Assembly: GCF_023653455.1 (NCBI RefSeq)
Contig: NZ_JAKEDR010000047.1
Coordinates: 1-20,640, forward strand
From: Paraclostridium ghonii
Lineage (GTDB): Bacteria; Bacillota; Clostridia; Peptostreptococcales; Peptostreptococcaceae
Reading direction: 5' to 3'
Length of the DNA stretch: 20,640 nucleotides
The position numbers and the translations under genes were made by a program. Positions 881-17,887 of the stretch are shown here, piece by piece (positions within the stretch are counted from its first letter, which is position 1; the number at the start of each line of letters is the position of its first letter). The notes beneath the pieces were generated by a model, which ran no database searches, had not been told where the DNA came from, and saw only the letters and a program-made list of their open reading frames with translations.

Positions 881-2146
881 TTATGATAACATATTTATAA
901 ACATTATTATAGTAGGTATAGCAACTAAGTCTATTAAGAAAGCACAAACAATTGGTATTGTAAAAAATGCTCTTTCTGAGTAGCCGTATCTACTACATAT
1001 TGAATTTAAATTTGCAAGTGCATTTGGAGTAGCCCCAAGTTCATGACCTATAAACCCTCCAACCATTACAGCTGCGTCATAATCCTTACCTAATAATCTA
1101 AACATTATAAATATAGTAAATAAAACTATAAATAATACTTGCATTAAAACTATAATCAACATAGGTAATCCAAGTGTTTTTAATTCCCAAAGTTTTATAC
1201 TCATAAGAGCCATAGTTAAGAATAAATTTAAGCTTATATCACCTAAAAGGTCAAAACATGAATAGTCAACAGTTACAAGCTTAAATTTATCATTAGCATT
1301 TCTAAAAGTTATTGCAACTAATATACCACCTACATATTCAGGTAAAGCATAACCTGTAATGCTAGTAATAAAATTACTAACAACATATCCTATAGACATA
1401 CATGCAGTTAATATAAAAATATGTTTAATAAACTCTGAAGAATCTAATTTTGATGATGCTGTAGTATCTTTACATACAGCTACTTCTTCGTTAAAATTAT
1501 CTTCATTATTAACTTGATTATGTAAATCACTTAAAACAAACTTATTTGGCTTTAATTTATATTTTTCAATTAAAAATTTTGAAGTTGGGGCACCTATAAA
1601 TCCGCCACAAATAAGACCTAATGTTGCAGCGGCAAGGCCTATTGTATTAGCCCCTACAACTCCCATTGATTCTAGCGTTGGACCAAAAGTTGCACTAGTA
1701 CCATGTCCTCCACCCATAGAAATTGCACCACACATAAGACCAAGTAGTGGATCAAGTCCTGTTAACATTGCACCAAATAATCCTATAATATTTTGTGCAA
1801 ATATAAGTATTATACAAAATATCCAATAAATAAGTACAGATTTTCCACCTTTTTTTATAAGGTTAAAGCTGGCACCTATACCTACAGTAGTGAAAAAAGC
1901 CACCATAAAAGTAGATTGTAAGCTAGTATCTAGTACAACGCTTAATATATTGAATTGATTAAGTAAAAAAACTAAAAGTGCAAATAATATGCCTCCAATA
2001 ACTGGGGCAGGGATACATAGTCTATCTAAAATTAAAATTTGTTTTTTTAAGGTTTTACCTAGTATTATTAAAAAACACGTTAATGCAATTGTAGCAGCAA
2101 TGTTTAGATTAAGAGTAAGGATTCCATTAATGTTGGTAAGTTCCAT
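881..2146 (-). CDS. gltS: Sodium/glutamate symporter, GltS family
   Basis: A 421-residue, roughly 11-12-span membrane protein whose length and layout match GltS, the Na+-coupled glutamate symporter of the inner membrane. Two internal repeats carry the family's glycine-rich re-entrant motifs: GGGHGTSATFGP at 145-156, and GGFIGHELGATPNAL near residue 370. A central hydrophilic loop near 205-235 separates the halves. The ATG at 2146 has TAAGGAG seven bases upstream (2154-2160). A terminator between this gene and the xanthine-type permease argues that it has its own promoter. Glutamate supply has no obvious place in the purine pathway next door, so the neighbourhood may be accidental, or the real substrate may differ. 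Confidence 0.88.
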   Translation of the reverse strand: MELTNINGILTLNLNIAATIALTCFLIILGKTLKKQILILDRLCIPAPVIGGILFALLVFLLNQFNILSVVLDTSLQSTFMVAFFTTVGIGASFNLIKKGGKSVLIYWIFCIILIFAQNIIGLFGAMLTGLDPLLGLMCGAISMGGGHGTSATFGPTLESMGVVGANTIGLAAATLGLICGGFIGAPTSKFLIEKYKLKPNKFVLSDLHNQVNNEDNFNEEVAVCKDTTASSKLDSSEFIKHIFILTACMSIGYVVSNFITSITGYALPEYVGGILVAITFRNANDKFKLVTVDYSCFDLLGDISLNLFLTMALMSIKLWELKTLGLPMLIIVLMQVLFIVLFTIFIMFRLLGKDYDAAVMVGGFIGHELGATPNALANLNSICSRYGYSERAFFTIPIVCAFLIDLVAIPTIIMFINMLS

Positions 2147-2319: not shown

Positions 2320-3657
2320 TTATTTATCAGTATCTTTTAAAACTAAATTAAGAATTAAAGCAAATATAGTACCCGTACTTATACCTGAGCCAAATAACAT
2401 TTTTAAACTGTTAGGAAGGTTTACTAAAAGATCTGGTCTAGTTGTAATTCCAAGACCTAAAGCTAGTGAAATAGAAATTATAATTAAGTTTCTATTATTC
2501 ATGTTAACTCTACTTAATGTTTTGATACCACTAGCAGCAACAACTCCAAACATTACAATTCCAGCACCACCTAAAACAGGACTAGGAATAGATGCAACTA
2601 AAGCCCCTAATTTGGGGAATACACCAAGTAGCATCATAATTATTCCTGACATTACAACTACATGGCGACTTGCAACTTTAGTTATAGGAATAAGACCAAC
2701 GTTTTGACTGAAAGATGTATTTGGACCTGCTCCGAAAAAACCAGCTATAAAACTTCCTACACCATCAGCTAAAACACCTTTACTTATTTCATCTCTTGAA
2801 GTTTCTCTTTCAGAAGCTTCTCCTATAGCGATTAAACATCCAACTGTTTCTATAGTAGTTACTAAATATGCGACTATAAATGGAGCTACTCCTGCTAAAC
2901 TAAACTTTATTCCATGTTCTAATACTAAAGGAATACCAGGAATGCCTACCCAAGTTGCTTCTTTTATAGGAGTAAAATCAACCAATCCAAGAGGAATACA
3001 TATTAAGTATCCTACAAACATTCCTATTAAAATAGATGCGCTACTAAGAATGCCTTTACCATATATATTAAACCCTATTACTATAATCATAACTATTAAA
3101 GATATACAAATATTTATAATACTTCCATAATCAGATGAGCCCACACCACCTGCACACCAATCCATAGAAACTGGAATAAGTGTAAGTCCTATTAAAGTTA
3201 CTACAGTACCTGTAACGACTGGTGGGAAAAATTTCATAAGAGGTTTTATAAATCTACTTAAAATCATTTCTATGAAAGAGCCAAGTATGGTAGCCCCAAG
3301 TATTCCAGCAAGACCCATAGAACTGCCTACTGCTATAGATGGACCTACAAAAGTAAAATCAGTTCCCATAATACATGGAAGTTTAGACCCAACTTTACAA
3401 ACACCATGAGCTTGAATCACAGTTGCAATGCCTGCAACAAATATTGCTGCACTAACCATTAAAGCTGTGGTTTGAACATCAAGACCTATTGCAGGGCCTA
3501 CAACTAAAGGGACAGCTACAATTCCACCGAAAGCTGCAACTATATGTTGAAAACCAAGAAGAATTGAAAGCTGTAAATTTGGTTTATCGTCTATCTTGTA
3601 AAGTAATCCTGAGTTATTTTTATTTTTAATCTTTTGAGAAGAACTATTTTCACTCAT
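2320..3657 (-). CDS. NCS2/NAT family xanthine/uracil-type permease
   Basis: A 445-residue protein of the nucleobase-cation symporter-2 (NAT) family, with about 14 membrane segments. It imports a purine or pyrimidine base together with a cation. Visible family marks are GFQHIVAAFGG at 35-45 with the conserved His38, TTIETVG at 267-273 with the conserved Glu, and the NAT signature QNVGLIPITK at 318-327. The hydrophilic first 25 residues are cytoplasmic. The start has TAGGAGGAG upstream. It follows the cyclase gene by 39 bases on the same strand, so the two are probably co-transcribed, divergent from the purine-catabolic microcompartment operon. The context favours xanthine or uric acid over uracil; the motif alone does not decide this. 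Confidence 0.9.
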   Translation of the reverse strand: MSENSSSQKIKNKNNSGLLYKIDDKPNLQLSILLGFQHIVAAFGGIVAVPLVVGPAIGLDVQTTALMVSAAIFVAGIATVIQAHGVCKVGSKLPCIMGTDFTFVGPSIAVGSSMGLAGILGATILGSFIEMILSRFIKPLMKFFPPVVTGTVVTLIGLTLIPVSMDWCAGGVGSSDYGSIINICISLIVMIIVIGFNIYGKGILSSASILIGMFVGYLICIPLGLVDFTPIKEATWVGIPGIPLVLEHGIKFSLAGVAPFIVAYLVTTIETVGCLIAIGEASERETSRDEISKGVLADGVGSFIAGFFGAGPNTSFSQNVGLIPITKVASRHVVVMSGIIMMLLGVFPKLGALVASIPSPVLGGAGIVMFGVVAASGIKTLSRVNMNNRNLIIISISLALGLGITTRPDLLVNLPNSLKMLFGSGISTGTIFALILNLVLKDTDK

Positions 3658-3696
3658 AAAATTCTCCTCCTATATAAAATTTGATACTAACTTGTA

Positions 3697-4389
3697 TTAA
3701 TCTTCCAAAAGAGCAATTGCTCTTATAGGTGAACCTGAACCTTCTCTTATTTTAAGAGGTAATCCAAAGTATAAAAATCTTTTGCCAACTAATTGATCAA
3801 GGTTGCATAGATTTTCTGTATTGGTAATATCATATTCACCACATACTAAATGACCTGAAAAATTTAAGTCATCTGGATGGTCAATAGCAGGCGCATCTAC
3901 GCCTATATTTACAACACCAGATTTTGCTAAATATGTAGCGGCATTATAACTAAGCCCAGAATACTCAGTTTGCCATTTATAAGTATTAAAGTTTCTATCA
4001 TAATGTCCGGTATACATTAGTAATATATCACCTTTTTCAATTTGTAAATTTGATTTATTCAAAGCATTTTCTATATCTGAAACTTCAATATACCTACTAT
4101 AAGAAATATCACTTAAATCTATACAAATAGCACTTCCAAAAAAATAATCTAGTGGCATATTTTCTATAGTTTTTCCACTTGGTTTATATTCCCACACTGC
4201 ATCACAATGAGTTCCTCCATGTTCGCTTATAAGTAAATTTCTAGCAGAAAATCCAAGAGTTTTGCTACCAGTTTTTTTCATATTTTCTTCATGAGTCATG
4301 TTAGTCATTATAAAAGTAGGCTGATGCATTGGAAAAACAGACATGCCTTGATAAATTTCTTGAGACAAATCAATTACTCTAAACCCCAT
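3697..4389 (-). CDS. Cyclase-family metal-dependent hydrolase; candidate 4-imidazolonase
   Basis: This 230-residue protein belongs to the cyclase family that includes kynurenine formamidase (KynB) and isatin hydrolase. These cytosolic metal-dependent enzymes cleave N-formyl or cyclic amide bonds. The family motif HGGTHCD is at 57-63 (His57, His61, Asp63). Also present are VDAPAID at 164-170, a later His at 180 and Glu185, all expected near the metal site. I chose ATG at 4389 because AAGGAGG (4400-4406) is eight bases away; an in-frame GTG at 4398 overlaps that site. It shares a transcript with the permease. Because relatives open lactam rings and the other five steps of xanthine breakdown are covered elsewhere here, opening of 4-imidazolone to formiminoglycine is my inference. 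A formamidase or unrelated role is possible. Confidence 0.85.
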   Translation of the reverse strand: MGFRVIDLSQEIYQGMSVFPMHQPTFIMTNMTHEENMKKTGSKTLGFSARNLLISEHGGTHCDAVWEYKPSGKTIENMPLDYFFGSAICIDLSDISYSRYIEVSDIENALNKSNLQIEKGDILLMYTGHYDRNFNTYKWQTEYSGLSYNAATYLAKSGVVNIGVDAPAIDHPDDLNFSGHLVCGEYDITNTENLCNLDQLVGKRFLYFGLPLKIREGSGSPIRAIALLED

Positions 4390-4614
4390 AAAAAACACCT
4401 CCTTAAAAAGTTTATTTAATAAGTTATATTCACAATGGATAGAAAATATAATTTATTAAACAAGTGTAAATATAAAAATTAAAAAATAGACGTTAAATCA
4501 AAAGATAAATTCATTATAGTAAAAATTTAAATCATAAGTTTGGATAAATGAAGATTTGCTTGTTTTAATAGTTTATCTACTTATTAAATTAAAAAAAGAT
4601 AAGGAGATAATTGT
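4390..4614 (+). promoter_or_regulatory. Divergent regulatory region between cyclase-permease and BMC operons
   Basis: This 225-bp, very AT-rich gap must hold the promoters of both divergent transcripts. No confident -35/-10 pair is visible. The 11-mer ACTTATTAAAT occurs once on each coding strand, at mirror positions: minus strand 4414-4424 and plus strand 4579-4589, each about 25 bases before its start codon. Each copy is preceded by a TAT-rich stretch (TATAA or TATCT) that could be a -10 element. No known riboswitch fold was recognised. Confidence 0.45.
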
Positions 4615-5556
4615 ATGGAGAAAAAACAATATGTACTAGCAGTACCAAATTTTAGTAATGGTAAAGACAAAAATGTAATTGAAGCAGTTGTAGATGTAGT
4701 TAGAAGTTCAAACGTTAAACTAGTAAGTTATGAACCTGAAGAAGATTTTAATAGAACAGTTGTAACATTTATAGGAGAGCCAGAAGATGTAAAAGATGCA
4801 TTAGTTAATATGGCTAAAAAATCCATAGAGCTTATAGATATGAGAGAGCATAAAGGAACTCACCCTAGAATTGGAGCACAAGATACTCTTCCTATATTCC
4901 CATTAAAAAATATAACAATAGAAGAGTGTGTAGAATTGTCAAAAGAGATAGGAGAAAGATTACATAAAGAAACTCAAGTCCCTATATATTTTGCAGGAGA
5001 AAGTGCTACTACTGAAGAAAGAAAAGCATTTGCATATATCAGAAAAGGACAATATGAAGGTGTTAGAGATCTTTTAAAAGCAATAAAAGATAATGACACT
5101 AGACAAGAAGAATACAACAATAGAAAGCCAGATTTAAGTGTAGATGGACTGTTAAGTGAAAAGTCTGGAGCAACATTATCAAGCGCTGAATTTAATGGGC
5201 TTACAGCTTACAACATATTCCTTGGAACTGAAAATGTAGAGATAGCTAAAAAAATAGCAAAAGCATTAAGAGGGCCAAGCGGGGGATTTAGTACTGTTAG
5301 GGCAGTTGGAATAAAGTTCCCTGAAAAAGAAGGAGTAGTAGTTTCAATGAATCTTCTAGATTGCTATAAAACCCCTATTCATAGAGCTTTTGAATTTGTA
5401 AAAAGAGAAGCGAAGAGATATGGAGTAACAGTAACAGGAAGTCAATTAGTTGGACCTATTAAACTAGATTATGTATTAGATACATTTAATTACTATTTAC
5501 AATTAGAAGATTTTAAAAATGAACAAGTGTTAGAAACTCATTTAATGGATATATAA
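4615..5556 (+). CDS. Formiminotransferase (glutamate or formiminoglycine formimidoyltransferase)
   Basis: A 313-residue stand-alone formiminotransferase, the length usual for single-domain bacterial enzymes without the cyclodeaminase half. It moves a formimino group to tetrahydrofolate in the cytosol. The catalytic motif HKGTHPRIGAQD is at 79-90; His83 matches the catalytic histidine known from mammalian FTCD. The N-terminal AVPNFSNGKD and the C-terminal domain (about 180-305) fit the family. AAGGAG lies nine bases before ATG. It opens the plus-strand operon and is followed 12 bases later by the amidohydrolase. In histidine breakdown the donor is formiminoglutamate, but no hut gene is near; in xanthine fermentation the donor is formiminoglycine, giving glycine, which fits this locus better. 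Donor choice is inferred. Confidence 0.9.
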   Translation: MEKKQYVLAVPNFSNGKDKNVIEAVVDVVRSSNVKLVSYEPEEDFNRTVVTFIGEPEDVKDALVNMAKKSIELIDMREHKGTHPRIGAQDTLPIFPLKNITIEECVELSKEIGERLHKETQVPIYFAGESATTEERKAFAYIRKGQYEGVRDLLKAIKDNDTRQEEYNNRKPDLSVDGLLSEKSGATLSSAEFNGLTAYNIFLGTENVEIAKKIAKALRGPSGGFSTVRAVGIKFPEKEGVVVSMNLLDCYKTPIHRAFEFVKREAKRYGVTVTGSQLVGPIKLDYVLDTFNYYLQLEDFKNEQVLETHLMDI

Positions 5557-5568
5557 GGGGGATTTAAA

Positions 5569-7116
5569 ATGATAGATTTAATTATAAAAAATGCCAACAT
5601 ACCTCAAGGAGACGAGATGGTTCTTACTAATATATTAGTAAAAGATGAAAAAATAGTAGGTTTTGTTGATGATATAAACATAATAGATTCAAAAGAAGTT
5701 ATAGATGCGAATAGAAATTTAGTAATGCCAGGGTGCATAGATTCACATACACACTTTATGTATCAAGGATTTCCTCATAGAGAGAACTTTTTAACAGGAA
5801 CAGCAGCAGCAGCAACTGGTGGAGTTACCACTATAATTGATATGCCTTGCTGTTCAGTTCCTTCGGTTAGAAGTGTAGAACAACTAGAAACAAAACTAGG
5901 AATATGTGGACCACAAGCGTTAGTAGATTATGCTATGTGGGGAGGCGTTACAGGAGAAGATGTACGCGAAGGTTGGATGCATAATGTAAAAGAACAAGCA
6001 GATTATGGAGTAGTTGCTTTTAAAGTTTATATGACTCCATCAGTTCCAACTTATCCAAGAGTTACAGATCCAGAAATGTTTGAGTGTTTTAAAGCGGTAT
6101 CACAAACTGGTCTTCCAATAGGAATCCATGCTGAGAATTTTGCAATGTGTGATTTTTATGTAAATAAATTTAAAGATGAAGGTAGACTTGATGGACCTGC
6201 TTGGGCAGAAGCTAGAATGGAACTTGCTGAAAAGGTAGCTATAGAATTAGGAATTAGCTTTGCAGAAGCTAGTAAAGCTAGGCTTCACATAGTTCATATG
6301 AGTACAGGAATTGGAGCTAAATTAGTTAAAGAAGCTAAAATGAGAGGTTTAGATGTAACTAGTGAATCTTGTCCTCATTACTTAACTTTAAATTACCAAG
6401 ATGCTATGACTGAATACGGACCACTTGCAAAAATAGCACCACCTCTTAGAACTAAAAAAGATAATGAAGAGAATTGGCAAGGTATAAATGATGGAAGTAT
6501 AGATTTTATAGCAACAGATCATGCACCATATGAACTAGAAAGTGAAAAAATAAAAGAAGGCATGAATATATGGACTTCATTCCCAGGTATACCGGGAGTT
6601 GAAACTATGGTTCCTGTTATAGTTAGTGAAGGATACAATAAAGGAAGAATTTCACTAAGTAAATTAGTTGATATTTTAAGTACTAATGCAGCTAAACACT
6701 ATGGATTATATCCTAAAAAAGGTGCTTTAAACATAGGATCTGATGCTGACTTTTCAATAATAGATTTAAATAAAGAATGGACTATAAAAAGAGAAGATTT
6801 AGTAACTATGTGTGGATATACTCCACTTGAAGGTATGAAGTTAAAAGGAAGAATAGTTAAAACTATAGTTAGAGGTAATTTAGTTTATGAAGCTGGAGAA
6901 GCTGGAGTTTTAGGCAAACTAGATAATTATGATGTATTATTTAACAACCCACAAGAATTAACTAGTGAGTTATATAAAGTTAGTTATAGAAAAGATCATC
7001 CAGAGTTGATTGTTGATCATGTTAAAAATATAAAAGGTATAAAAGTTAAACCAGGATTTGGTAAATTTATAAAACGTCAAACAATAAGTAAGTTAGATAA
7101 AAATATTAAGTTTTAA
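5569..7116 (+). CDS. Dihydropyrimidinase/allantoinase-like amidohydrolase; candidate xanthine amidohydrolase
   Basis: A 515-residue cyclic amidohydrolase. All ligands for a two-metal site are visible: HTH (His60, His62), the lysine that becomes carboxylated (FKVYM, Lys152), HAEN (His187), HIVHM (His243) and TDHAPY (Asp317). The family hydrolyses ring amides in dihydropyrimidines, hydantoins and allantoin. Here the likely substrate is the pyrimidine ring of xanthine, giving 4-ureido-5-imidazolecarboxylate; that is an inference from the neighbours. The usual terminal motif (PGFGKFIKR, 495-503) is separated from the barrel by about 44 extra residues (450-493), and a Lys-rich tail follows. GGGGG at 5557-5561 serves the ATG. 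The gene lies between the formiminotransferase and hairpin element A. Allantoinase is the main alternative. Confidence 0.88.
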   Translation: MIDLIIKNANIPQGDEMVLTNILVKDEKIVGFVDDINIIDSKEVIDANRNLVMPGCIDSHTHFMYQGFPHRENFLTGTAAAATGGVTTIIDMPCCSVPSVRSVEQLETKLGICGPQALVDYAMWGGVTGEDVREGWMHNVKEQADYGVVAFKVYMTPSVPTYPRVTDPEMFECFKAVSQTGLPIGIHAENFAMCDFYVNKFKDEGRLDGPAWAEARMELAEKVAIELGISFAEASKARLHIVHMSTGIGAKLVKEAKMRGLDVTSESCPHYLTLNYQDAMTEYGPLAKIAPPLRTKKDNEENWQGINDGSIDFIATDHAPYELESEKIKEGMNIWTSFPGIPGVETMVPVIVSEGYNKGRISLSKLVDILSTNAAKHYGLYPKKGALNIGSDADFSIIDLNKEWTIKREDLVTMCGYTPLEGMKLKGRIVKTIVRGNLVYEAGEAGVLGKLDNYDVLFNNPQELTSELYKVSYRKDHPELIVDHVKNIKGIKVKPGFGKFIKRQTISKLDKNIKF

Positions 7117-7119
7117 TTT

Positions 7120-7227
7120 TTGATAAGAGAGTGGGAGTTATGACTTGTTTCTGTCGCTAAAGACCTAAAGTGCTCGGTCTTTAACGCTCCTTCAACAAGT
7201 CATAACTCCCGCTCTATACACTATCAA
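7120..7227 (+). repeat. Long hairpin element A (permuted form)
   Basis: The outer stem pairs 7128-7149 with 7194-7215 (22 pairs, one G-U), extended by 7120-7125 with 7222-7227. The apical stem pairs 7158-7165 with 7176-7183. Between the stems is an internal loop with TGTCGC on the 5' side (7152-7157) and GCTCC on the 3' side (7186-7190). The helix flanking the loop contains CTTGT (7144-7148) and ACAAG (7195-7199). The same blocks recur in elements B and C, but with the two loop strands in the opposite order. No T-run follows, so it is not a typical terminator. It fills most of the gap between the amidohydrolase and the cysteine hydrolase. Confidence 0.8.
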
Positions 7228-7277
7228 GCTTTATAAATTTAATTTTTAGGTGAGAGAGAATAAGAGGGGGATTTATT

Positions 7278-7889
7278 ATGAAAAGACATGCAATTTTAGT
7301 TATAGATATGTTAAATGATTTTGTTGGAGAGAAAGCTCCGTTAAGATGTCCAGGAGGAGAGAAGATAATACCCGATCTTCAAAAGCTTTTTGCTTGGGTT
7401 AGAGAGAGAAATGCTAAAGGTTTAGATGATGTTCAGTTAGTTCATATACAAGAAGCTCATAGAAAAAATGATGCTGATTTTAGAGTTAGACCTGTTCATG
7501 CTGTAAAAGGGACTTGGGGTTCTGATTTTATAAAAGAACTTTATCCCCAAGGTGAAGAATATATAGTTCCAAAGAGAAGACATAGTGGATTTGCGCATAC
7601 TGATTTAGATTTATACTTAAGAGAAGAAAATATAGATACAGTTGTTGTTACTGGAGTATGGACTAATGTATGTGTTAGAAGTACTGCAAGTGATGCTTTA
7701 TACAATGCTTACAAAGTTATAACTTTAAGTGATGGGGTACATTCTAAAAATGATGAAATGCATGAAGCAGGACTTAGAGACTTAAGTATATTTACAAAAG
7801 TTATGACTATTGATGAGTATATAGATGCATGGGAAAAAGGCCTAGACCCTTGGTCCGGTGGAGGAGATACAGAAAATAAAGTAGAATAG
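7278..7889 (+). CDS. Isochorismatase-like cysteine hydrolase; candidate ureido-imidazolecarboxylate amidohydrolase
   Basis: A 203-residue cytosolic amidase of the isochorismatase-like family. The catalytic triad is visible: Asp10 in VIDMLNDF, Lys99 in VPKRRHSGF and Cys132 in GVWTNVCVRST. The presence of the Cys indicates an amide hydrolase (like N-carbamoylsarcosine amidase, nicotinamidase or the ureidoacrylate hydrolase RutB), not an isochorismatase. Relatives remove ureido (carbamoyl) groups as CO2 and ammonia, which is the second step of xanthine fermentation, from 4-ureido- to 4-amino-5-imidazolecarboxylate. That assignment is inferred from the locus. GAGGGGG precedes the ATG. A hydrophilic tail of about 15 residues (189-203) follows the catalytic fold. 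The gene is bracketed exactly by hairpin elements A and B. Confidence 0.9.
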   Translation: MKRHAILVIDMLNDFVGEKAPLRCPGGEKIIPDLQKLFAWVRERNAKGLDDVQLVHIQEAHRKNDADFRVRPVHAVKGTWGSDFIKELYPQGEEYIVPKRRHSGFAHTDLDLYLREENIDTVVVTGVWTNVCVRSTASDALYNAYKVITLSDGVHSKNDEMHEAGLRDLSIFTKVMTIDEYIDAWEKGLDPWSGGGDTENKVE

Positions 7890-7890
7890 T

Positions 7891-8026
7891 TAAATAGTTT
7901 TGTTAGGCTGGTTTGGGCTTGGGGACGATATGAGGGATTTGCTCCATACAAGCTGGGAAGATACTTGTAAATGTCGCTGTATCCCTCATATCATCCCCAA
8001 GCCTTACAGCATATCAAAACTATTTA
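7891..8026 (+). repeat. Long hairpin element B
   Basis: The outer stem pairs 7891-7902 with 8015-8026; after an unpaired stretch it continues as 7916-7938 with 7981-8003 (22 of 23 positions paired). The apical stem TACAAG (7947-7952) pairs with CTTGTA (7964-7969). The internal loop has GCTCC (7941-7945) opposite TGTCGC (7972-7977), as in element C. The element begins right after the cysteine hydrolase stop and ends 56 bases before ubiX. No T-run follows, so read-through into ubiX is likely. Confidence 0.8.
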
Positions 8027-8081
8027 AAAATACATAACTTTATTTAATAGATAAAAAAGATAGAGATTGGAAGGAAATTTT

Positions 8082-8636
8082 ATGAAAATTGTTGTTGGGA
8101 TTTCAGGTGGTAGTGGAGCTATTTATGCTTTGGGAATTTTACAGGCACTAAGAGAGCTTAAAGTGGAGAGTCATTTAGTTGTTTCAAATATGGGAGAATA
8201 TGTTGTAAAACATGAGTGCGGATTAAGTTTAGACGAGCTTAAAGATATGGCTGATTTTTATTATGAAAATTATGATTTAGCAGCTTCTATAGCAAGTGGT
8301 TCATTTAAAACAGATGGGATGATTATAGTTCCTTGTTCTATGAAGACCCTGGCATCTGTTGCTCATGGATTTAGTGAATCTTTATTAACTAGGTGTGCTG
8401 ATGTTTGTATTAAAGATAGAAGAAGATTAGTATTGCTTCCTAGAGAAACTCCGTTAAGTTCTATTCATCTTGAGAATATGTTAAAGCTTTCTAACATAGG
8501 GGTAACTATTATGCCTCCTACTCCAGGTTTTTATAATCATCCTCAAGATTTAAGTGATATTGTTACATCCATTGTAGGTAGATGCTTAGACCAGTTTGGA
8601 ATAGAACATAGTTTACTTAAGAGATGGGGTGAATAA
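8082..8636 (+). CDS. ubiX: UbiX-type flavin prenyltransferase
   Basis: This 184-residue protein is a full-length UbiX/Pad1 relative. It attaches a dimethylallyl group to FMN to make prenylated FMN, the cofactor of UbiD decarboxylases. The flavin-binding start GISGGSGAIYALG (about 6-18), the central IVPCSMKTLASVAHG and the late LVLLPRETPLSSIHLENM and MPPTPGFYNHP motifs are all present. I chose ATG at 8082, served by GGAAGGA at 8069-8075; an upstream in-frame TTG at 8067 overlaps that site. The gene is followed at once by ubiD, so the pair forms a cofactor-maker and decarboxylase unit. It lies downstream of hairpin element B and upstream of the shell genes. The family assignment is secure. Confidence 0.95.
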   Translation: MKIVVGISGGSGAIYALGILQALRELKVESHLVVSNMGEYVVKHECGLSLDELKDMADFYYENYDLAASIASGSFKTDGMIIVPCSMKTLASVAHGFSESLLTRCADVCIKDRRRLVLLPRETPLSSIHLENMLKLSNIGVTIMPPTPGFYNHPQDLSDIVTSIVGRCLDQFGIEHSLLKRWGE

Positions 8637-8637
8637 C

Positions 8638-9978
8638 TTGGAGAGTCAAATGCTTAGGTCTACTTTAGATAAATTAGATAAATTAGGATACTTAAAAACT
8701 TGTAAAAAGAAAGTTGATAAGGATTTTGAGTTAGGTGCTATACTTAGATACTTTGACAATGAAGTACCTATAGTTTTTAATAATATAAAAAATTATGATA
8801 TAGATTTAGTTGGAGGTATATATGGAAGTAGGAAAACATTTAATGATTTAATGGATGTAAATGAAGAAGATAGGATTTATAAATTTATGGATGCTATAGC
8901 AAATCCTAAACCTTATAAAGAGATTAAAAATGGACATATTAAACAAAATATTTTAACCAAAAACATAGACATAAACAAATTATTTCCAATTCCAACTTCA
9001 CATGAAAAAGACTCTTCTAACTTTATAACAGCAGGGATGCTTATAATAAAAGATCCAGAGACAAAAGACATACATATGGCTGTTAGAAGATTTCAAGTAA
9101 ATGATAAAGATAATATAAGTGCATTGGTATCTGGAGCTTCTCCACATTTAAATAATATTATAAAAAAAGCTGAAGCAAAAAATGAAAAGTTAGAATGTGC
9201 AGTAGTTTTAGGATATGATGCAGAGTTTTTAATAGCATCTCAAATTAGTTCTTCAAAATATGGACTAGATAAATATGAGGTTTATAGTGCTTTAAAAAAT
9301 GAACCACTTGAGGTTGTAAAGTGCAGTAGCGTTGATATACTAGTTCCAGCTTTTTGTGAAATTGTAATAGAAGGACACTTAAATCCAAATAAAAAAGTTA
9401 AAGAAGGTCCTTTTGGAGAGCTTATGGGTTATTACGGAGAAATAGCCAATCACCCAACTATAGATATTAAAGCTGTAATGCATAGAGATAATCCAATTTT
9501 TCAACATGCATTTCCTTCAAGAGAAGAACATTTATCAAATGGGCTTATAAGAGAGGTTGAAATATATAGTGCTTTAAAAAATATAGTAGATGTATTAGAC
9601 GTAAATGTAACTGTAGGTGGAGGATGCAGGCTTCATGCAATAGTAAAGATAAATAAAAGAAATGAAGGCGATGGAAAAAGTGCAATACTTACAGCACTTG
9701 GAAGTAGTAAAGATTTAAAACATGTAGTTATAGTTGATAAAGATGTAGATATATATAATTACAAAGATGTAGAATTTGCAATAGCCTCAAGAGTTCAAGC
9801 AACTAAGGATGTAGTTATAGTATCTAATGCACTGGGAAGCCCACTAGAAGCTTCACATGTACATAAAGGGCTTAGTGATAAGATGGGAATTGATGCTACA
9901 AAGCCTTTAGACAATGAATTATTTAATAGAGCTATAATACCAGGTTATGAAAGTATAAATATAGATGATTATTTTTAA
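8638..9978 (+). CDS. UbiD-family decarboxylase; candidate 4-amino-5-imidazolecarboxylate decarboxylase
   Basis: A UbiD-family protein of about 446 residues, which uses prenylated FMN to decarboxylate (hetero)aromatic or unsaturated acids. Family marks include the mid-protein AVRRFQVNDKD (metal/cofactor region), EGPFGELMGYYG with the conserved acidic and glycine residues, and the late VQATKDVVIVSNALGSPLE. I prefer TTG at 8638, six bases after GGGGTGA (8625-8631), the same layout as the next gene; GTG at 8629, overlapping the ubiX stop, is the alternative. In xanthine fermentation the third step removes the carboxylate of 4-amino-5-imidazolecarboxylate, and this is the only decarboxylase in the cluster. 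The substrate is inferred. It is followed 28 bases later by the first shell gene. Confidence 0.92.
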   Translation: MESQMLRSTLDKLDKLGYLKTCKKKVDKDFELGAILRYFDNEVPIVFNNIKNYDIDLVGGIYGSRKTFNDLMDVNEEDRIYKFMDAIANPKPYKEIKNGHIKQNILTKNIDINKLFPIPTSHEKDSSNFITAGMLIIKDPETKDIHMAVRRFQVNDKDNISALVSGASPHLNNIIKKAEAKNEKLECAVVLGYDAEFLIASQISSSKYGLDKYEVYSALKNEPLEVVKCSSVDILVPAFCEIVIEGHLNPNKKVKEGPFGELMGYYGEIANHPTIDIKAVMHRDNPIFQHAFPSREEHLSNGLIREVEIYSALKNIVDVLDVNVTVGGGCRLHAIVKINKRNEGDGKSAILTALGSSKDLKHVVIVDKDVDIYNYKDVEFAIASRVQATKDVVIVSNALGSPLEASHVHKGLSDKMGIDATKPLDNELFNRAIIPGYESINIDDYF

Positions 9979-10006
9979 CTTCCTAGTTTAAAAGGGGTGA
10001 GAATTA

Positions 10007-10267
10007 TTGAAAGCATTAGGAATAGTAGAGGTAAGAAGTTTAATAGGTGCAATTCAAGCAGCAGATGCAATGTTAAAATCGGCAGATGTTGAACTTGTAG
10101 ATATAGATTTAGTAGGTTCTGGAATAGTTGCTGCAATTATAAAAGGTGATGTAGCAGCTGTTAAAGCAGCCGTTGAAAATGGAGAAGAGAGTGCTAGCAA
10201 ATTAGCAGAAATAATATCTACTAATGTAATAGCAAGACCTCATGATGAAGTAAGTAAAATTCTATAG
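10007..10267 (+). CDS. BMC-H shell protein 1
   Basis: An 86-residue single BMC-domain protein, expected to form hexameric tiles of a microcompartment shell. It begins KALGIVEVRSLIGAIQAADAM and ends with the family's VIARPHDEV. The pore loop reads LVGSG (35-39): the GSG seen in PduA/CcmK types is kept, but the Lys usually just before it is absent. The start is TTG at 10007, six bases after GGGGTGA. It is slightly short compared with the usual 90-100 residues and has no C-terminal extension. It lies between the decarboxylase and a small Lys/Asn-rich gene, which supports encapsulation of the upstream enzymes. Confidence 0.95.
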   Translation: MKALGIVEVRSLIGAIQAADAMLKSADVELVDIDLVGSGIVAAIIKGDVAAVKAAVENGEESASKLAEIISTNVIARPHDEVSKIL

Positions 10268-10278
10268 GTGGTGGTTAA

Positions 10279-10596
10279 GTGGCAGATTTGTTGACAAAGG
10301 TTGTTATGAAAAATATATCAACTAAAGCACTTAATAAAACATATAAAAAAGAAGAATATATAAGAGTTGAAAATATAAACAGCAATGAAGAAGATATATT
10401 AAAAAGAATACTTTACAAAGGTAGTAAAAAACCTATCTTAGATAATTTAAAAGATGATAAGAATAGAATGGAAAAAATAGATTTTAAATCTTTAAATTAT
10501 TTAAATCATAATTTAGTTAGTAATAAAAATGTATCTAAAAATATAAATAATAAGCAATCTAAAAATATGATTAGTTTAAAAGATTTAGCTAGATAA
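10279..10596 (+). CDS. Unrecognised small Lys/Asn-rich protein between shell genes
   Basis: I do not recognise this 105-residue protein. Its start is GTG at 10279 with AGGTGG at 10266-10271; the stop is 11 bases before the next shell gene. It is polar and rich in Lys and Asn, probably poorly folded in its second half. The first 18 residues (ADLLTKVVMKNISTKAL) could form an amphipathic helix, with hydrophobic pairs LL, VV and AL spaced as in microcompartment encapsulation peptides. EKIDF at 65-69 recurs near the start of the other small protein (3-7), and the end NMISLKDLAR has a weak likeness to the ITLNDI segment of that protein. A scaffold or linker between enzymes and shell is a guess. Confidence 0.7.
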   Translation: MADLLTKVVMKNISTKALNKTYKKEEYIRVENINSNEEDILKRILYKGSKKPILDNLKDDKNRMEKIDFKSLNYLNHNLVSNKNVSKNINNKQSKNMISLKDLAR

Positions 10597-10607
10597 GGGG
10601 GGAGCAC

Positions 10608-10961
10608 ATGAGAAAAGCCCTAGGAATGATTGAATCAGTAGGACTTACTACAGCAATAGCAGCACTTGATGCTGCAAGCAAAGCTGCAGATATTACTTTA
10701 GTTGGATATGACAAAGTAATAGGAGTGGAAAAAGCAGTCAGCGTAACTATACATATAGCTGGTGAGGTTTCTGCAGTAAACGCAGCTATAGACGCAGGTG
10801 TTGAAGCTGGAAATAGAGTTGGAAAAATTGTTTCAAGCAAAACAATAGCGAGACCTCATGAAGATATAGATTTTTTAATTAAAGAATTTGAAAAAAATCT
10901 TAAACAAAAAAATAATAGTAAAAAACTAAAAGAAAATAAAAATAAAGAAGAAAATAATTAA
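10608..10961 (+). CDS. BMC-H shell protein 2 with altered pore and charged tail
   Basis: A 117-residue BMC-domain hexamer protein. Residues 1-91 cover the fold (RKALGMIESVGLTTAIAAL at the start, TIARPHEDID near the end). Compared with its two neighbours, the pore loop is about four residues longer: KVIGVEKAVSV at 36-46 replaces KIGFG or LVGSG, putting Glu41 and Lys42 near the pore. A tail of about 25 residues (93-117), almost all Lys, Asn, Glu and Gln, follows the fold and is probably disordered. AGGGGGGAG precedes the ATG. The tail shares KNLKQ with the nearby 126-residue protein, though composition alone could cause that. It probably forms a tile with a distinct permeability. Confidence 0.93.
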   Translation: MRKALGMIESVGLTTAIAALDAASKAADITLVGYDKVIGVEKAVSVTIHIAGEVSAVNAAIDAGVEAGNRVGKIVSSKTIARPHEDIDFLIKEFEKNLKQKNNSKKLKENKNKEENN

Positions 10962-10979
10962 TAATTGGAGGTATAGGTT

Positions 10980-11255
10980 ATGGGGCAAGCGCTAGGAATG
11001 ATAGAAACTAAAGGTTTGGTAGGAGCAGTAGAAGCAGCTGACGCTATGGTAAAGTCAGCTAATGTAACTTTAATGGGATATGAAAAAATAGGATTTGGGT
11101 TAGTAACAGTTATGGTAAGTGGAGATGTAGGTGCAGTAAAAGCAGCTGTTGATGCAGGTGCAGAAGCAGCAAGAAATGTAGGGGAACTACACTCAGTTCA
11201 TGTTATACCAAGACCTCACTCAGAAGTTGAAAGAGTAATACTAAGTAGAGACTAA
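10980..11255 (+). CDS. BMC-H shell protein 3 (canonical)
   Basis: A 91-residue BMC-domain protein closest of the three to canonical PduA/EutM-type tiles: [20 protein letters not shown] at the start, [10 protein letters not shown] at the end. The pore reads KIGFG at 36-40, where the usual motif is KIGSG; a Phe in place of Ser would make the central pore more hydrophobic and possibly narrower. GGAGGT at 10967-10972 serves the ATG. It follows shell protein 2 by 18 bases and is followed by the 126-residue protein only five bases after its stop. It is likely the main facet protein of this shell, judged by its conventional sequence. Confidence 0.96.
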
Positions 11256-11259
11256 CTAA

Positions 11260-11640
11260 ATGAAAGAAAAAATTGATTTTACAAAAAATATATTAAATAA
11301 GATAAGTAAAAATCTAAAACAAGATACTAAAATCAAATCTAATAATTATAAAAATACCAAACCTAATAATATAGATGACAATTCATATATAATGATACCT
11401 ACAAATCATAAAAATATAAAAGAAATCCTTAAAATTTTAAATAATGAAAATCTGAATTATAAAAAAGAAACAAACAAAATTAAAAATAATGAAGAAAAAA
11501 TAAAAAGAGAAGTAATAACATTAAATGACATAATTAATTCAAACAAAGAAAGTATAAACATATCAAAAGATTCTATAATAACTCCGATGGCAAAAGATTA
11601 TATAAAACAAAAGAAAATAAAAATAAAAATAGGGGGATAA
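11260..11640 (+). CDS. Unrecognised small protein with EutQ/EutT-like C-terminal motif
   Basis: A 126-residue Lys/Asn-rich protein that I cannot name as a whole. Residues 1-80 are polar, with a possible amphipathic helix near the start (FTKNILNKISKNLKQ, 7-21). Residues 84-123 are different: EVITLNDI, then SIITPMAKDYI and KKIKIKI. The same pattern (a V/LITxxDI strand-turn, then S-I-I-T-P-x-A-x-D/E and a short Ile-rich strand) occurs at the N terminus of EutQ, and a related LTPAARD segment occurs in EutT. Both belong to ethanolamine microcompartment operons. No strong ribosome binding site is seen; the ATG is five bases after the shell 3 stop, suggesting coupled translation. A role in shell or core assembly is inferred. 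Confidence 0.72.
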   Translation: MKEKIDFTKNILNKISKNLKQDTKIKSNNYKNTKPNNIDDNSYIMIPTNHKNIKEILKILNNENLNYKKETNKIKNNEEKIKREVITLNDIINSNKESINISKDSIITPMAKDYIKQKKIKIKIGG

Positions 11641-11642
11641 AC

Positions 11643-11915
11643 ATGCAAATAGGAAAAGTTATAGGAACAGTAGTTTCTACGAAAAAAGATGAGACTTTAG
11701 TAGGAAGTAAGCTAATGATAACTCAACCATTAAATTTTAAAAATGAAATAGACGGAAAGCCACTAATAGCTGTAGACACAGTAGGAGCAGGAATTGGAGA
11801 ACTTGTAATATATACAGAAGGAGCAGCGGCTAGAAATGCAACGAAAAAAGTACAATCATCAATAAATGCAGCCATTATAGGTATTGTGGATAATATAGAT
11901 GTTTGGGAGGATTAA
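11643..11915 (+). CDS. BMC-P pentameric vertex protein (EutN/CcmL family)
   Basis: A 90-residue EutN/CcmL-type protein, which forms the pentamers that close the vertices of polyhedral microcompartments. It begins MQIGKVIGTVVSTKKDETLVG, carries the central VDTVGAGIGELVIYTEG with the family's Gly-rich turn, and ends AAIIGIVDNIDVWED, as is usual. AGGGGGAT lies just before the ATG, which is two bases after the stop of the preceding gene. It is the only vertex protein in the window, and no BMC-T (tandem-domain) protein is present. Its last codons contain the ribosome binding site of the adenine-deaminase-like gene. Confidence 0.96.
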   Translation: MQIGKVIGTVVSTKKDETLVGSKLMITQPLNFKNEIDGKPLIAVDTVGAGIGELVIYTEGAAARNATKKVQSSINAAIIGIVDNIDVWED

Positions 11916-11917
11916 AA

Positions 11918-13720
11918 TTGAAATATATAAAACAAGCAATGGAGTATAAGGAGTTAATAGATACTCTTATGAGTGATAAACACCATGCAGATATTGTTCT
12001 GTATGGTGGTAATATTATAAATGTATTAACTAGAGAGATATACACAGGGGATATGGCTATAAAAGGAAATCATATATTAATGGTAGGAGATTGTGATAAT
12101 TTAATAGGGGAAAACACTATAGTTGTAGATGTCTGTGGCAAATATTTATCTCCAGGATTTATAGATTCACATATGCACTTTGAAAGTAGTATGTTAACAG
12201 TTACCGAATTTTCTAGATTTTCTATACCATCAGGAACTACGACGTTAATAGCAGATCCTCATGAAATAGGAAATGCATTAGGTAGCGTTGGGATGAAAGC
12301 TATGGCAGATGAAGCAAGTCACGTTCCAAATTATGTAAGGTTTGTAGTTCCAGCACTAACTCCGGACTGCCCTAGCCTTGAAACAGCAGGAGTTGATGTT
12401 AATTCTAAGGATATGGAAGATTTGTTAAATTATAAAAATATAATAGGTATAGGAGAACTTCAAGGCTTTAGTAATGCAAAGCATGTGTATAATAATACCC
12501 CAGAAATAATAACAGATTTATTAGCATCTACCACATATGCTAAAAGTATAGGGAAAATAGTAGATGGTAATGCTCCAGAGCTATTTTCAAATGAACTTGC
12601 TGCACATATAGTGTGTACTGGAGGAAAATGTTCTTGTCATGAAACAACTACTAAACATGAATGTATAGAAAAGTTAAGACAAGGTGTTTATGTATTTATG
12701 AGAGAAGGTTCAACTCAAAAGAATATGGGAGAATGTATAAAAGCAGTAACAGAAGAAAATTTAGATTCAAGAAGATGTATATTAGCTACAGATGATATGG
12801 TAGCAAAGGACTTACAAGAGCTAGGGCATATGAATGAAATAATAAAAAGAACTATAAATGAAGGAATAAATCCTGTTGAAGCTATACAAATGGCAACTAT
12901 AAATCCCGCAACTTATTTTAATTTAGAAGATAGAGGGGTATTAGCTCCAGCTAAAGTTGCTGATATTGCAATAATTAATGACTTAAATAATATGGATGTA
13001 GAAGCAGTTTTTATAGGTGGGAAAATTGTAGCTTCTGATAAAAGGTTATTGATAGATTTGCCTAAATATACTTATCCTGATAGTGTTAAAAATTCTATTA
13101 AAATAAATAAGATAAATGAAAAAGATATAGGTATTATAAGTGATAAAAAAGAAGTTGTTGCTAGATGTATAAAAGCAATACCTGATCAAAATTTAACTGA
13201 GTGTATTAAAGTTAAGCTAAAAACTAGAAATAATATAGTGGAAGCTGATGTTAATGAAGATATTTTACATATTGCCTGTATCGAAAGATATGGAAGAAAT
13301 AACAATATAGGTAAGGCCTTTGTCAATGGATTTGGACTTAAAAAAGGTGCATTTGCAGAAAGTATTGCTCATGATACTCATAATATAATTGTGGTAGGAA
13401 CTAATATATACGATATGGTAGTTGCAGTTAATAAAGTAATAGAAATGGGTGGAGGCATTGCTGTTGTCAACAATGGTAGAGTATTAGAGGAACTAAGATT
13501 AAATGTAGGTGGACTTATTACAGATGAGCTTACTGGAAGCGAAGTAAGTGAAAAAATTGATTTACTAGAAAATGTAGTAAATAAGGACTTAGGTGGGAAG
13601 ATACATGCTCCATTTATGCATTTATCTTTCTTAGCGTTATCTACTAGCCCTAAATGGAAGATTACTGATAAGGGATTAATAGATGTTAATAATTTTGAAG
13701 TGCTAAGTCCAATTTTATAA
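11918..13720 (+). CDS. Adenine-deaminase-like amidohydrolase; candidate 4-aminoimidazole deaminase
   Basis: A protein of about 600 residues with the full architecture of the adenine deaminase (Ade) family: N-terminal small domain, metal-dependent barrel and a C-terminal domain with HDTHNIIVVG and GGGIAVV. Metal-site residues visible are HMH (His85, His87), DPHE (His115), GELQGF (Glu180), SCHET (His241) and ATDD (Asp292). Where E. coli Ade has DGHCPG, this protein has DGNAPE, so a conserved His is Asn218, and AEMM is GELQ. I chose TTG at 11918, served by GGGAGG at 11905-11910; an upstream TTG at 11903 overlaps that site. It ends the operon. Adenine deamination is possible, but the changed residues and context suggest another amino-purine-derived substrate such as 4-aminoimidazole. 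Confidence 0.88.
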   Translation: MKYIKQAMEYKELIDTLMSDKHHADIVLYGGNIINVLTREIYTGDMAIKGNHILMVGDCDNLIGENTIVVDVCGKYLSPGFIDSHMHFESSMLTVTEFSRFSIPSGTTTLIADPHEIGNALGSVGMKAMADEASHVPNYVRFVVPALTPDCPSLETAGVDVNSKDMEDLLNYKNIIGIGELQGFSNAKHVYNNTPEIITDLLASTTYAKSIGKIVDGNAPELFSNELAAHIVCTGGKCSCHETTTKHECIEKLRQGVYVFMREGSTQKNMGECIKAVTEENLDSRRCILATDDMVAKDLQELGHMNEIIKRTINEGINPVEAIQMATINPATYFNLEDRGVLAPAKVADIAIINDLNNMDVEAVFIGGKIVASDKRLLIDLPKYTYPDSVKNSIKINKINEKDIGIISDKKEVVARCIKAIPDQNLTECIKVKLKTRNNIVEADVNEDILHIACIERYGRNNNIGKAFVNGFGLKKGAFAESIAHDTHNIIVVGTNIYDMVVAVNKVIEMGGGIAVVNNGRVLEELRLNVGGLITDELTGSEVSEKIDLLENVVNKDLGGKIHAPFMHLSFLALSTSPKWKITDKGLIDVNNFEVLSPIL

Positions 13721-13960: not shown

Positions 13961-14443
13961 ATGAAGAAAGAAATATATAATAAATTAGATGAACTAAATA
14001 TAAAATATAAAATTTTAGAGCATGAGGAAGTTTTTACGGCTGATGAATTTTATAAAGTTACAAAGGATATGCCAGGGCATCACTGTAAGAACTTATTTTT
14101 AAAGAACTCTAATAAAAGTACTAATTATTTGGTAGTGGTAAAACACGATAAAGCTGTTGATTTAAAAGAGATAAGATCTCAAATTGGAAGTAGTAGACTT
14201 TCTTTTAATTCACCAGAAAGATTATATGAATTGATGAAGGTAACACCTGGGAGTGTAAATCCATTTAGTATTATAAATGATGTAAATAGTGAAGTAGAAG
14301 TGCTAATAGATAATGATTTATTAGATGGTCAAAATCTTAATTTTCACCCTGCTATAAATACGGAGACGTTTAATATATCTGGAGATGATTTTAATAAGTT
14401 TTTAGATTACATAGATAATAAGGTTATTAAGGTTAGTATATAG
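13961..14443 (+). CDS. ProX/YbaK-type aminoacyl-tRNA deacylase (ProXp-ala-like)
   Basis: A 160-residue single-domain protein of the YbaK/ProX family. Members hydrolyse mischarged tRNA, mainly Ala-tRNA(Pro), as free-standing versions of the prolyl-tRNA synthetase editing domain. Visible marks are the conserved Lys in CKNLFLKN (about 43), a G-x-V-x-P-F segment (PGSVNPFSI, 97-104), and NFHPAINTET (127-136) with the late conserved His and Asn. The length matches free-standing ProX. AGGGGGT lies before the ATG at 13961. It stands alone after the microcompartment operon terminator and is not expected to take part in purine breakdown. The exact tRNA substrate cannot be read from the sequence. Confidence 0.87.
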   Translation: MKKEIYNKLDELNIKYKILEHEEVFTADEFYKVTKDMPGHHCKNLFLKNSNKSTNYLVVVKHDKAVDLKEIRSQIGSSRLSFNSPERLYELMKVTPGSVNPFSIINDVNSEVEVLIDNDLLDGQNLNFHPAINTETFNISGDDFNKFLDYIDNKVIKVSI

Positions 14444-14587
14444 AGTGATTCATTTTTGATTACACAAAGTATGTTATTCCAGAGTATGAGTTTTCAATAA
14501 ATAGTAATGGATATCCAAAAACATTTTAAGCATAATTTTTAGAATTATATATGATATTAATTTTATATGGTGCATGGACAATAGATA

Positions 14588-14622
14588 AGCCTATTTTTAG
14601 TATAATATACTAAAGATAGGCT
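14588..14622. other. Perfect-stem hairpin between convergent genes
   Basis: Arms 14588-14603 and 14607-14622 form a 16-bp stem with one G-U pair and a 3-base loop. It lies between the ProX-like gene and the convergent glycosyltransferase-like gene. Neither strand has a clear T-run after it, so a terminator role is only probable. The rest of 14444-14653 shows no gene apart from a possible short remnant (14449-14529). Confidence 0.55.
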
Positions 14623-14653
14623 ATAAAATAATAAGTATTTCTAATTTGAAATT

Positions 14654-15373
14654 TTATAGTAATTTAAAATCTTTTAAAGCTTTATTTTTAAAATCTTCAG
14701 ATGTTCTAGGAATTCCCTGGTATGCAGATAATGAATTTAAAATATTGGTTCCATGCATTAGCACCATAACGTATTCATGCAAAAGGTATTCATGTGTTAA
14801 ATGAACTACATCACCATGATTTACATATTTATAACGTAATCCATTAATGTATGAATTAACATCATAGATTAATGCATATAAGCCACAATGATGATCAGGT
14901 GTAGTAAAGGAAAGCATAGTATCAGTTGGTATATCATAAATATAAACATTTCTATTTATAATACATTGAGTGTCTGATTTAATTTGAAAATCTATTAGTT
15001 TTTGAAGATATTGAGGGTGCATTAGATTATCAGAATCAAAAGGAACTAAATATAAATAGTCATATCCAATTATGGATTCTTTCACAAAATCATCTTCACA
15101 TATTTGTTCAAATCCAATAGTTGAAATCATAGGTCTAAATATAATATTATTAGCAAGTTTAGGATATTTAGATAGAGCATCCAAAACTAAATCTTGGCTA
15201 TTGACATCATAGTAAATTAATGCCAAAAAATCTTGATAAGTTTGATTAATTAAGCTAAAATAAGTGTACTTTATAAACAAATCAATTCTATAATCTATCC
15301 ATTCTTTGGTTAATCTATTTTTTGATAAATCCATTGTATTAAAATTTATAGTAACAATTAATTTTTTTTTCAA
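14654..15373 (-). CDS. Glycosyltransferase-like protein (putative rhamnosyltransferase type)
   Basis: A 239-residue protein resembling the putative rhamnosyltransferase group of GT-A glycosyltransferases. The N-terminal INFNTMDLSKNRLTKEWIDYR, then FSLINQTYQDFLALIYYD (39-56) and VPFDSDNLMHP (110-120), follow that pattern; DSD at 113-115 would be the metal and nucleotide-sugar binding DxD motif. No membrane segment or signal peptide is seen, so it should be cytosolic. The start is TTG at 15373, eight bases from GGAGGT (15382-15387 on the other strand). No other sugar or cell-wall gene is near, so donor and acceptor are unknown. Both nearest coding neighbours are on the other strand and functionally unrelated. 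Confidence 0.7.
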   Translation of the reverse strand: MKKKLIVTINFNTMDLSKNRLTKEWIDYRIDLFIKYTYFSLINQTYQDFLALIYYDVNSQDLVLDALSKYPKLANNIIFRPMISTIGFEQICEDDFVKESIIGYDYLYLVPFDSDNLMHPQYLQKLIDFQIKSDTQCIINRNVYIYDIPTDTMLSFTTPDHHCGLYALIYDVNSYINGLRYKYVNHGDVVHLTHEYLLHEYVMVLMHGTNILNSLSAYQGIPRTSEDFKNKALKDFKLL

Positions 15374-17014: not shown

Positions 17015-17098
17015 ATGGTTAAGAAGAAGAGTTTTCAAAGGGAATCCTAAAAAATATGTCACAGAAATAGTAATGCCAATAACTAGGGAGGAATAATT

Positions 17099-17722: not shown

Positions 17723-17778
17723 TAAAAGTATGTGAGACTGCCTATAGACTTGTGTAAATATAGTACTTAATACTCAAT

Positions 17779-17813
17779 ATTACTGGGATTTAATCAATTC
17801 TAGTAATTTTTTT
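17779..17813 (+). terminator. Terminator of the GyrI-like gene
   Basis: A 12-bp stem with arms 17779-17790 and 17796-17807, a 5-base loop, and a run of T from 17807 to 17813. Confidence 0.75.
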
Positions 17814-17887
17814 ATTGGGATATAAGAGATAGTACAATACGGAATTGGCTTCGATGTGTTTCGTCTCAACCATTGAAATCCACGAAA

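Follow-up and report, generated by a model that had tools for sequence, protein, structure and literature searches.

The window analyzed here is a 20,640-base stretch of Paraclostridium ghonii DNA that forms one entire contig (NZ_JAKEDR010000047.1; G000:C317 in our numbering, in which L numbers denote locus stretches and G numbers sampled genomes). Between positions 2320 and 13720 it carries a bacterial microcompartment (BMC) locus of the kind called BUF1 or XAU, for xanthine utilization. Two genes lie on the reverse strand: a PbuX-type xanthine permease of the NCS2 family (2320 to 3657; TIGR03173 477.4 bits, cut-off 414) and a cyclase-family hydrolase (3697 to 4398; PF04199 114.7, cut-off 23), the proposed opener of the 4-imidazolone ring (step 6). 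On the forward strand follow a formiminotransferase, FtcD (4615 to 5556; TIGR02024 324 bits, cut-off 221), proposed to pass the formimino group of formiminoglycine to tetrahydrofolate (THF; step 7); a cyclic amidohydrolase (Amh; 5569 to 7116), which passed the broad subfamily model TIGR00857 and is the proposed xanthinase (step 2); an isochorismatase-type cysteine hydrolase (Iso; 7278 to 7889; PF00857 147.8), the proposed 4-ureido-5-imidazolecarboxylate amidohydrolase (step 3); a UbiX flavin prenyltransferase for prenyl-FMN supply (8067 to 8636; PRK06029 250.8, cut-off 188); and a UbiD decarboxylase (8629 to 9978; TIGR00148 322 bits, cut-off 245), proposed to act on 4-amino-5-imidazolecarboxylate (step 4).

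The shell genes come next on the same strand: BMC-H protein 1 (10007 to 10267; PF00936 88.1 bits), BMC-H protein 2 with a charged C-terminal extension (10608 to 10961; PF00936 74.8 bits), the EutM-like BMC-H protein 3 (10980 to 11255; PF00936 106.9 bits), and a BMC-P vertex protein of the EutN/CcmL type (11643 to 11915; PF03319 107.6 bits), ahead of an Ade-like protein (11903 to 13720; TIGR01178) that is the proposed 4-aminoimidazole deaminase (step 5). Family profile matches confirm that every gene named in an initial annotation of this DNA is present, intact, and where it had been placed. That annotation missed two small open reading frames (ORFs) inside the shell operon, both on the forward strand. 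The first, sm1 (10279 to 10596; 105 residues, unannotated), is proposed as a core–shell tether from its conserved slot, a motif matrix, and an AlphaFold model; the second, sm2 (11260 to 11640; 126 residues), consists of an N-terminal helix, a linker, and a C-terminal module (approximately residues 82 to 124) resembling PduM and TIGR02536. By eye, UbiX translation probably starts at an internal ATG, and the true start of the Ade-like protein is probably a few codons downstream of 11903. The window has no gene for xanthine dehydrogenase (XDH), formimino-THF cyclodeaminase, or BMC-T; elsewhere in the same genome there are XDH-like genes on contigs C80 and C362, two cyclodeaminase-family genes, and a glycine reductase component on C224.

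Clusters of this kind have already been described. Axen 2014 described them as BUF, BUF1 is the name used in PMC8156839 and by Sutter 2021, Ravcheev 2019 proposed xanthine utilization and gave a gene for every step, and PMC12507026, citing Tong 2023, refers to a recently identified xanthinase-pathway gene cluster in Clostridia and Bacilli. The initial annotation had known of no assignment of each step, a claim to novelty that fails because of Ravcheev 2019 and PMC12507026. What is new here is the pair of overlooked small ORFs, together with support for a revised step order. The abstract by Tong and colleagues reportedly describes four hydrolases of different families and a prenyl-FMN decarboxylase. 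The window resembles BUF1/XAU loci in its amidohydrolases, deaminase, carboxy-lyase, isochorismatase, formiminotransferase, and BMC-H and BMC-P proteins: its enzymes include two of amidohydrolase type, the cysteine hydrolase, UbiD, FtcD, and the cyclase, both shell gene kinds are present, and, as in BUF1/XAU, the families identified for its genes include no aldehyde dehydrogenase core.

It differs from those loci in lacking BMC-T, XDH, and a 445-residue amidohydrolase discussed below, and in having a short sm2. Two of these differences speak against the assignment, in that the BUF loci listed by Axen 2014 have BMC-T and those of Ravcheev 2019 have XDH beside them in four of five genomes, whereas the window has neither. 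We nevertheless take BMC-T to mark a subtype and not to define the kind, because a PduB-like BMC-T ORF was found in only 5 of 58 stretches, in a search that missed the EUT-type BMC-T of a control (L138) and thus excludes the PduB-like kind alone; this second search used PduB-like queries since single BMC-H queries could not detect such proteins. Adjacency to XDH is likewise not strictly defining, because one genome in Ravcheev 2019 is also without it. The control stretch, on contig C307, is the second BMC locus of the window's own genome and looks like an ethanolamine utilization locus; it holds 7 of that genome's 10 PF00936 domain matches, the other three being in the window.

At E ≤ 1e-60, the window's UbiD matched 45 of the 393 genomes sampled from the order (own genome counted) and three of six listed genomes of the same genus. 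A separate scan of genome contigs with UbiD gave one locus only. P. benzoelyticum has the same locus, with a UbiD that is 89% identical. The cluster is present at 43 of the 44 other UbiD-bearing loci in the order sample, in the same gene order and sometimes with intervening genes, and with 43 of 44 loci agreeing, the gene set is not due to chance. Gene gaps in this sample fall mostly at contig or fetch edges; in L066 and L070 the cyclase is missing from the full 19.9-kb stretch. In wider samples of the phylum and the class, UbiD matched 14 of 398 (1e-100) and 13 of 391 (1e-105), from which 13 and 8 further stretches were taken; of these 21, 14 have BMC genes of the XAU kind, L107 and L109 have a partial pathway without BMC genes, and five have UbiD alone. 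FtcD is missing from stretches L101, L119, L120, L121, and L126, all outside the order, and stretches L102 to L104 lack both the cyclase and FtcD, which in G440 sit further downstream. The initial annotation had expected that related loci would not lack several of its six enzymes; within the order nearly all are kept, whereas outside it the set is looser. Our comparisons leave out L040, which shares its contig with L009; L083, which has a UbiD but not the cluster; and L108 and L110 to L113, which have UbiD alone.

We read the locus as a BUF1/XAU microcompartment for anaerobic xanthine breakdown that follows the enzyme order of the initial annotation, possibly with small-protein tethers, and we put the probability of this reading as a whole at about 80%. 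We observe which genes are present, how they are conserved and grouped into modules, and how their domains are arranged; from this we infer the enzyme activities, the encapsulation, and the tether role. Xanthine would be imported by PbuX and its pyrimidine ring opened by the cyclic amidohydrolase to give 4-ureido-5-imidazolecarboxylate, from which the cysteine hydrolase would take off the ureido group. Using prenyl-FMN supplied by UbiX, UbiD would then carry out the decarboxylation to 4-aminoimidazole, the Ade-like protein would deaminate this to 4-imidazolone, the cyclase-family hydrolase would open the lactam to yield formiminoglycine, and FtcD would move the formimino group to THF with release of glycine. 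This is the same proposed chemistry as that of the clostridial anaerobic xanthinase pathway (Rabinowitz; Tong 2023). The shell would be built of three BMC-H proteins and one BMC-P protein, with the core possibly held to it by sm1 and sm2; it may contain the aminoimidazole and imidazolone, as the initial annotation suggested. The cyclase has the motif H..TH.D...E in 44 of 44 sequences, with Glu in place of the His of aligned PDB relatives, and the step-3 cysteine hydrolase has an ortholog of known structure, PDB 3hb7, deposited merely as an isochorismatase hydrolase.

Which enzyme performs which step can be compared with the literature through L076, which we take to be Alkaliphilus metalliredigens. 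Counting its genes onto Amet numbers, on the assumption of consecutive numbering, gives 4587 for the cyclase, 4586 for FtcD, 4584 for the amidohydrolase, 4583 for the cysteine hydrolase, 4581 for UbiD, 4574 for the Ade-like protein, 4572 for the 445-residue amidohydrolase, and 4569-68 for a split XDH. (The L076 cysteine hydrolase starts with the same residues as PDB 3hb7.) In the order that Ravcheev 2019 reasoned from homologs, xanthine is opened by the cyclase (XauA) and imidazolone by the cyclic amidohydrolase (XauF), and deamination of aminoimidazole falls to the 445-residue amidohydrolase (Amet_4572, XauE). In favor of that order, the L076 count puts all seven tagged functions in the paper's places, so its tags may be taken to denote these genes; the step-3 text names Amet_4587 again, apparently a slip for 4583. 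By the same count, the 2019 paper leaves the Ade-like protein without a step. Of 42 Ade-bearing stretches with enough sequence downstream, however, 32 gave an Amet_4572-like gene (in one case as an odd upstream match); it was found in none of six checked loci of the window's family, and its best relative in the window's genome is only 31% identical. Further evidence against the 2019 order comes from G631 and G556 (stretches L107 and L109), neither of which has any BMC-domain gene (0/2). Both keep the amidohydrolase, the cysteine hydrolase, and UbiD as one module, apart from the remaining enzymes: in G631 (L133) the genes after a contig-end cyclase are those for FtcD, an FchA-like protein, TrxB, glycine reductase subunits, and formate–THF ligase (the FchA and GrdG-type models scoring below their cut-offs), and in G556 an XAU-type Ade adjoins partial cyclase pieces at contig ends. 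The position of the cyclase beside FtcD and glycine reductase in G631 fits a formiminoglycine product handed to FtcD. We consider the 2019 order highly improbable for this locus, and the module split, the distribution of the Ade-like and 4572-like genes, and a residue signature of the Ade-like protein (below) favor the order set out above at steps 2, 5, and 6. The one-to-one match of six predicted enzymes to six steps in a xanthine-degrading compartment, as first proposed, is supported. Counting against the argument, the split is seen in two genomes of one genus, and an XAU-type Ade was not found in G631. Since these two genomes have pathway genes and no BMC-domain gene, the shell is not indispensable to the chemistry. 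At three of the six steps, the enzyme assigned here is not the one in the published genomic reconstruction, a disagreement that for each step comes down to an assay of one enzyme.

The Ade-like protein might instead be an ordinary adenine deaminase that feeds the pathway, and its score for plain adenine deaminase does lie over the cut-off, if barely (474.7 against 472.5), a point that weighs against a role in 4-aminoimidazole deamination. The gene is nonetheless a fixture of XAU stretches, being present in 53 of 57 (42 of 43 in the order and 11 of 14 outside it), and the four misses (L050, L106, L121, and L124) end at a contig edge before the Ade position. Residues 223 and 235 of the XAU-type protein are Asn and His in all 56 distinct sequences (59 rows, of which two are the copies of the BMC-free G556), whereas five of five Ade paralogues have His and Tyr at these positions; as judged from the alignments, N223 and H235 mark the XAU subfamily of Ade, with the His-to-Asn change subfamily-wide. 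A separate Ade paralogue is also present in the window's genome (39% identity, with one in-frame stop as read), and we regard ordinary adenine deamination as quite unlikely. Still less likely, and in our judgment most improbable, is that the substrate is not xanthine but another cyclic amide or azole, such as allantoin, a hydantoin, or a histidine-like imidazole. That idea draws on the amidohydrolase, for which, among the best 25 of 56 matches, the equivalog models fall below their cut-offs and the closest curated families are allantoinase, hydantoin-5-propionate amidohydrolase, and hydantoinase. It is opposed by the above-cut-off permease, which adjoins the cyclase in loci of the window's family (L009 and L040 to L046, the L045 copy reading as two ORFs), by an XDH-type FAD subunit in 38 of 42 related stretches, by the FtcD and glycine reductase context, and by the xanthinase-pathway cluster referred to in PMC12507026. 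Across the order, a PbuX match occurs in just 11 of 43 stretches.

Turning to the small ORFs, we find both slots filled in 49 of 49 readable loci (of 52 given, with L050, L121, and L124 lost at contig edges). An N-terminal motif of sm1 is present in 47 of the 49; the pattern fails in L071 and in L070, where an unrelated insert supplies the slot's longest ORF. Our alignment of sm1 (A2) shows in addition a middle motif with EE and I..K, and motifs of the SL..L type near the C-terminus that are missing in some short members. The protein has no Pfam or NCBIfam match and none of the tandem BMC domains of PduB. Its AlphaFold model, which has low-to-middling confidence (mean pLDDT 68.8, pTM 0.24), contains four short helices, and on this model sm1 is predicted to be mostly disordered. 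In five XAU loci outside the class (L102 to L106), the sm1 slot holds a PduB-like BMC-T protein of 324 to 343 residues with a long N-terminal extension; the three of these five that were scanned score 289 to 373 bits with PRK15415 (cut-off 173). A matrix built from the sm1 motif ranks the PduB-type N-terminus of L105 third of 995 non-sm1 rows, and sm2 N-termini fill 16 of the top 20 places (five were recognized by slot and length). Thus sm1 and PduB-like BMC-T share a gene slot, and sm1 has its N-terminal motif in common with one such protein; homology to the PduB N-terminal linker (PduB 1-37) is suggestive only.

The counterpart at the sm2 slot comes in two sizes, 239 to 298 residues in 35 of 49 loci and 74 to 143 residues in the other 14. 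In the model of a long form (L057; mean pLDDT 82.5), a floppy N-terminal helix precedes an alpha/beta domain, which a disordered linker joins to a confidently modeled C-terminal module. The PDB entries that match its middle domain are UbiX-like flavin prenyltransferases and flavoproteins related to them (best 6m8u, E 3.3e-8), and PF02441 matches 26 of 29 members at E ≤ 0.01. The window's sm2 lacks this UbiX-fold domain and retains both ends; its C-terminus aligns to PduM 113-153 (E 5.8e-5) and matches TIGR02536 (E 1.2e-5). Among 18 aligned members (A3), all 18 match TIGR02536 and 14 match PduM at E ≤ 0.01, and seven C-terminal columns are invariant. Because the window's sm2 is below the curated cut-offs, we say merely that it carries a PduM-like C-terminal module. 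In the ethanolamine utilization-like locus elsewhere in the genome, by eye, an ORF (L138:3854-4543) ends with sm2's IITPLA module and another (5194-5952) starts with a similar one. On a tree built by a quick method from UbiD, Ade, and Iso, with short defined as under 200 residues, the full state hand-set for L102 to L105, and 3 of 56 rows without a state, the 14 short and 39 full forms need four state changes (the shuffled mean is approximately 12), and starred branches force four. The length of sm2 has therefore switched at least four times. The tree itself is silent on gain versus loss; domain loss is the simpler reading because the ends are shared, with short forms on separate branches retaining the same ones, and because the full form is found in the outgroup.

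In Pdu compartments, the N-terminus of PduB and PduM join shell to core (PMC9132943 and PMC12108088), from which it follows that sm1 and sm2 may be core–shell tethers. Specifically, we propose, tentatively and with the odds somewhat against it, that the XAU core is loaded through free-standing tethers rather than enzyme-borne encapsulation peptides, with sm1, which has no shell domain, standing in for the PduB N-terminal linker in a BMC-T-less shell, and sm2 being a PduM-like adaptor of which several lineages have kept just the two ends that bind. Several observations pull the other way. An encapsulation peptide would have an amphipathic terminal helix joined by a linker, and here the two proteins give a mixed picture. 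The first helix of the window's sm1 is not amphipathic by hydrophobic moment (3034 of 5000 shuffles reach its moment), and across loci only 5 of 47 N-termini of sm1 attain the 5% level. The helix of the window's sm2 passes the same test (47 of 5000 shuffles), yet only 11 of 49 sm2 N-termini do so at that level. The sm1 matrix ranks the PduB-type N-termini of L106, L103, and L102 only 96, 203, and 259 and does not pick out that of L104, and the window's sm2 is far under the cut-offs of PduM (TIGR04493, 23 against 50 bits) and TIGR02536 (25 against 152.6 bits), besides lacking the middle domain of its longer homologs. Both proteins also change fast: between the window and L009, 38 of 102 and 38 of 126 codons differ non-synonymously, against 49 of 446 for UbiD and 0 of 91 for BMC-H protein 3. 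This rapid change, together with the folded domains missing from both, is what decaying remnants with no present role would look like. We think that explanation unlikely given an ORF at both slots in every readable locus, the sm1 motif in nearly all of them, the seven invariant sm2 columns, and the common ends of short forms on separate branches.

If the tether proposal is true, it matters more than the pathway claim, as linkage of core and shell would then be separable both from the shell trimer and from the folded adaptor, and short, genetically separate tethers would be available for compartment engineering. A PduM-like module whose middle domain was gained or lost at least four times, with both ends kept, points to the parts that do the work. 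Among open-access full texts, judged by title and the start of the abstract, no paper describing XAU tethers was found, subscription papers and supplements being outside that search; the sm1 and sm2 genes may be drawn without comment in the locus diagrams of the Sutter 2021 supplement.

Comparison of the enzymes with BMC-free kin (the amidohydrolase, the cysteine hydrolase, UbiD, and, by eye, the Ade N-terminus) reveals an extra tail on the cysteine hydrolase only. This PW.GGG C-terminal tail (within window positions 7756 to 7889) is found in 49 of 55 aligned sequences; it is missing in four aligned PduB-type loci, L123 and L124 have an altered form, and the BMC-free L107 and L109 lack it. It is only a candidate docking tail because its presence is confounded with phylogeny. 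The conserved C-terminus of the amidohydrolase was ruled out as a cargo tag, being present in BMC-free relatives as well, and the Ade N-terminus is similar in the BMC-free Ade by eye.

Regulatory features of the locus gave little. No purine riboswitch was found in the window, where Rfam gave just two weak sub-threshold, chance-like matches; this counts against the reading given above, and a structured RNA as proof of purine control was dropped. A promoter and terminator scan gave site numbers not above those of shuffles. The flanks of the window (881 to 2146 and 13961 to 20269) encode a sodium/glutamate symporter, an aminoacyl-tRNA editing domain protein, a radical SAM protein, a GyrI-like protein, and a LysR regulator, none of them obviously connected with the degradation of purines. 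In L076, turned so that UbiD is on the forward strand, a formate–THF ligase-like gene lies at 4826 to 6496 between FtcD and the amidohydrolase, and upstream are a cyclodeaminase-like gene and a possible PucR-type regulator (268 to 912 and 1141 to 2796), all named by eye.

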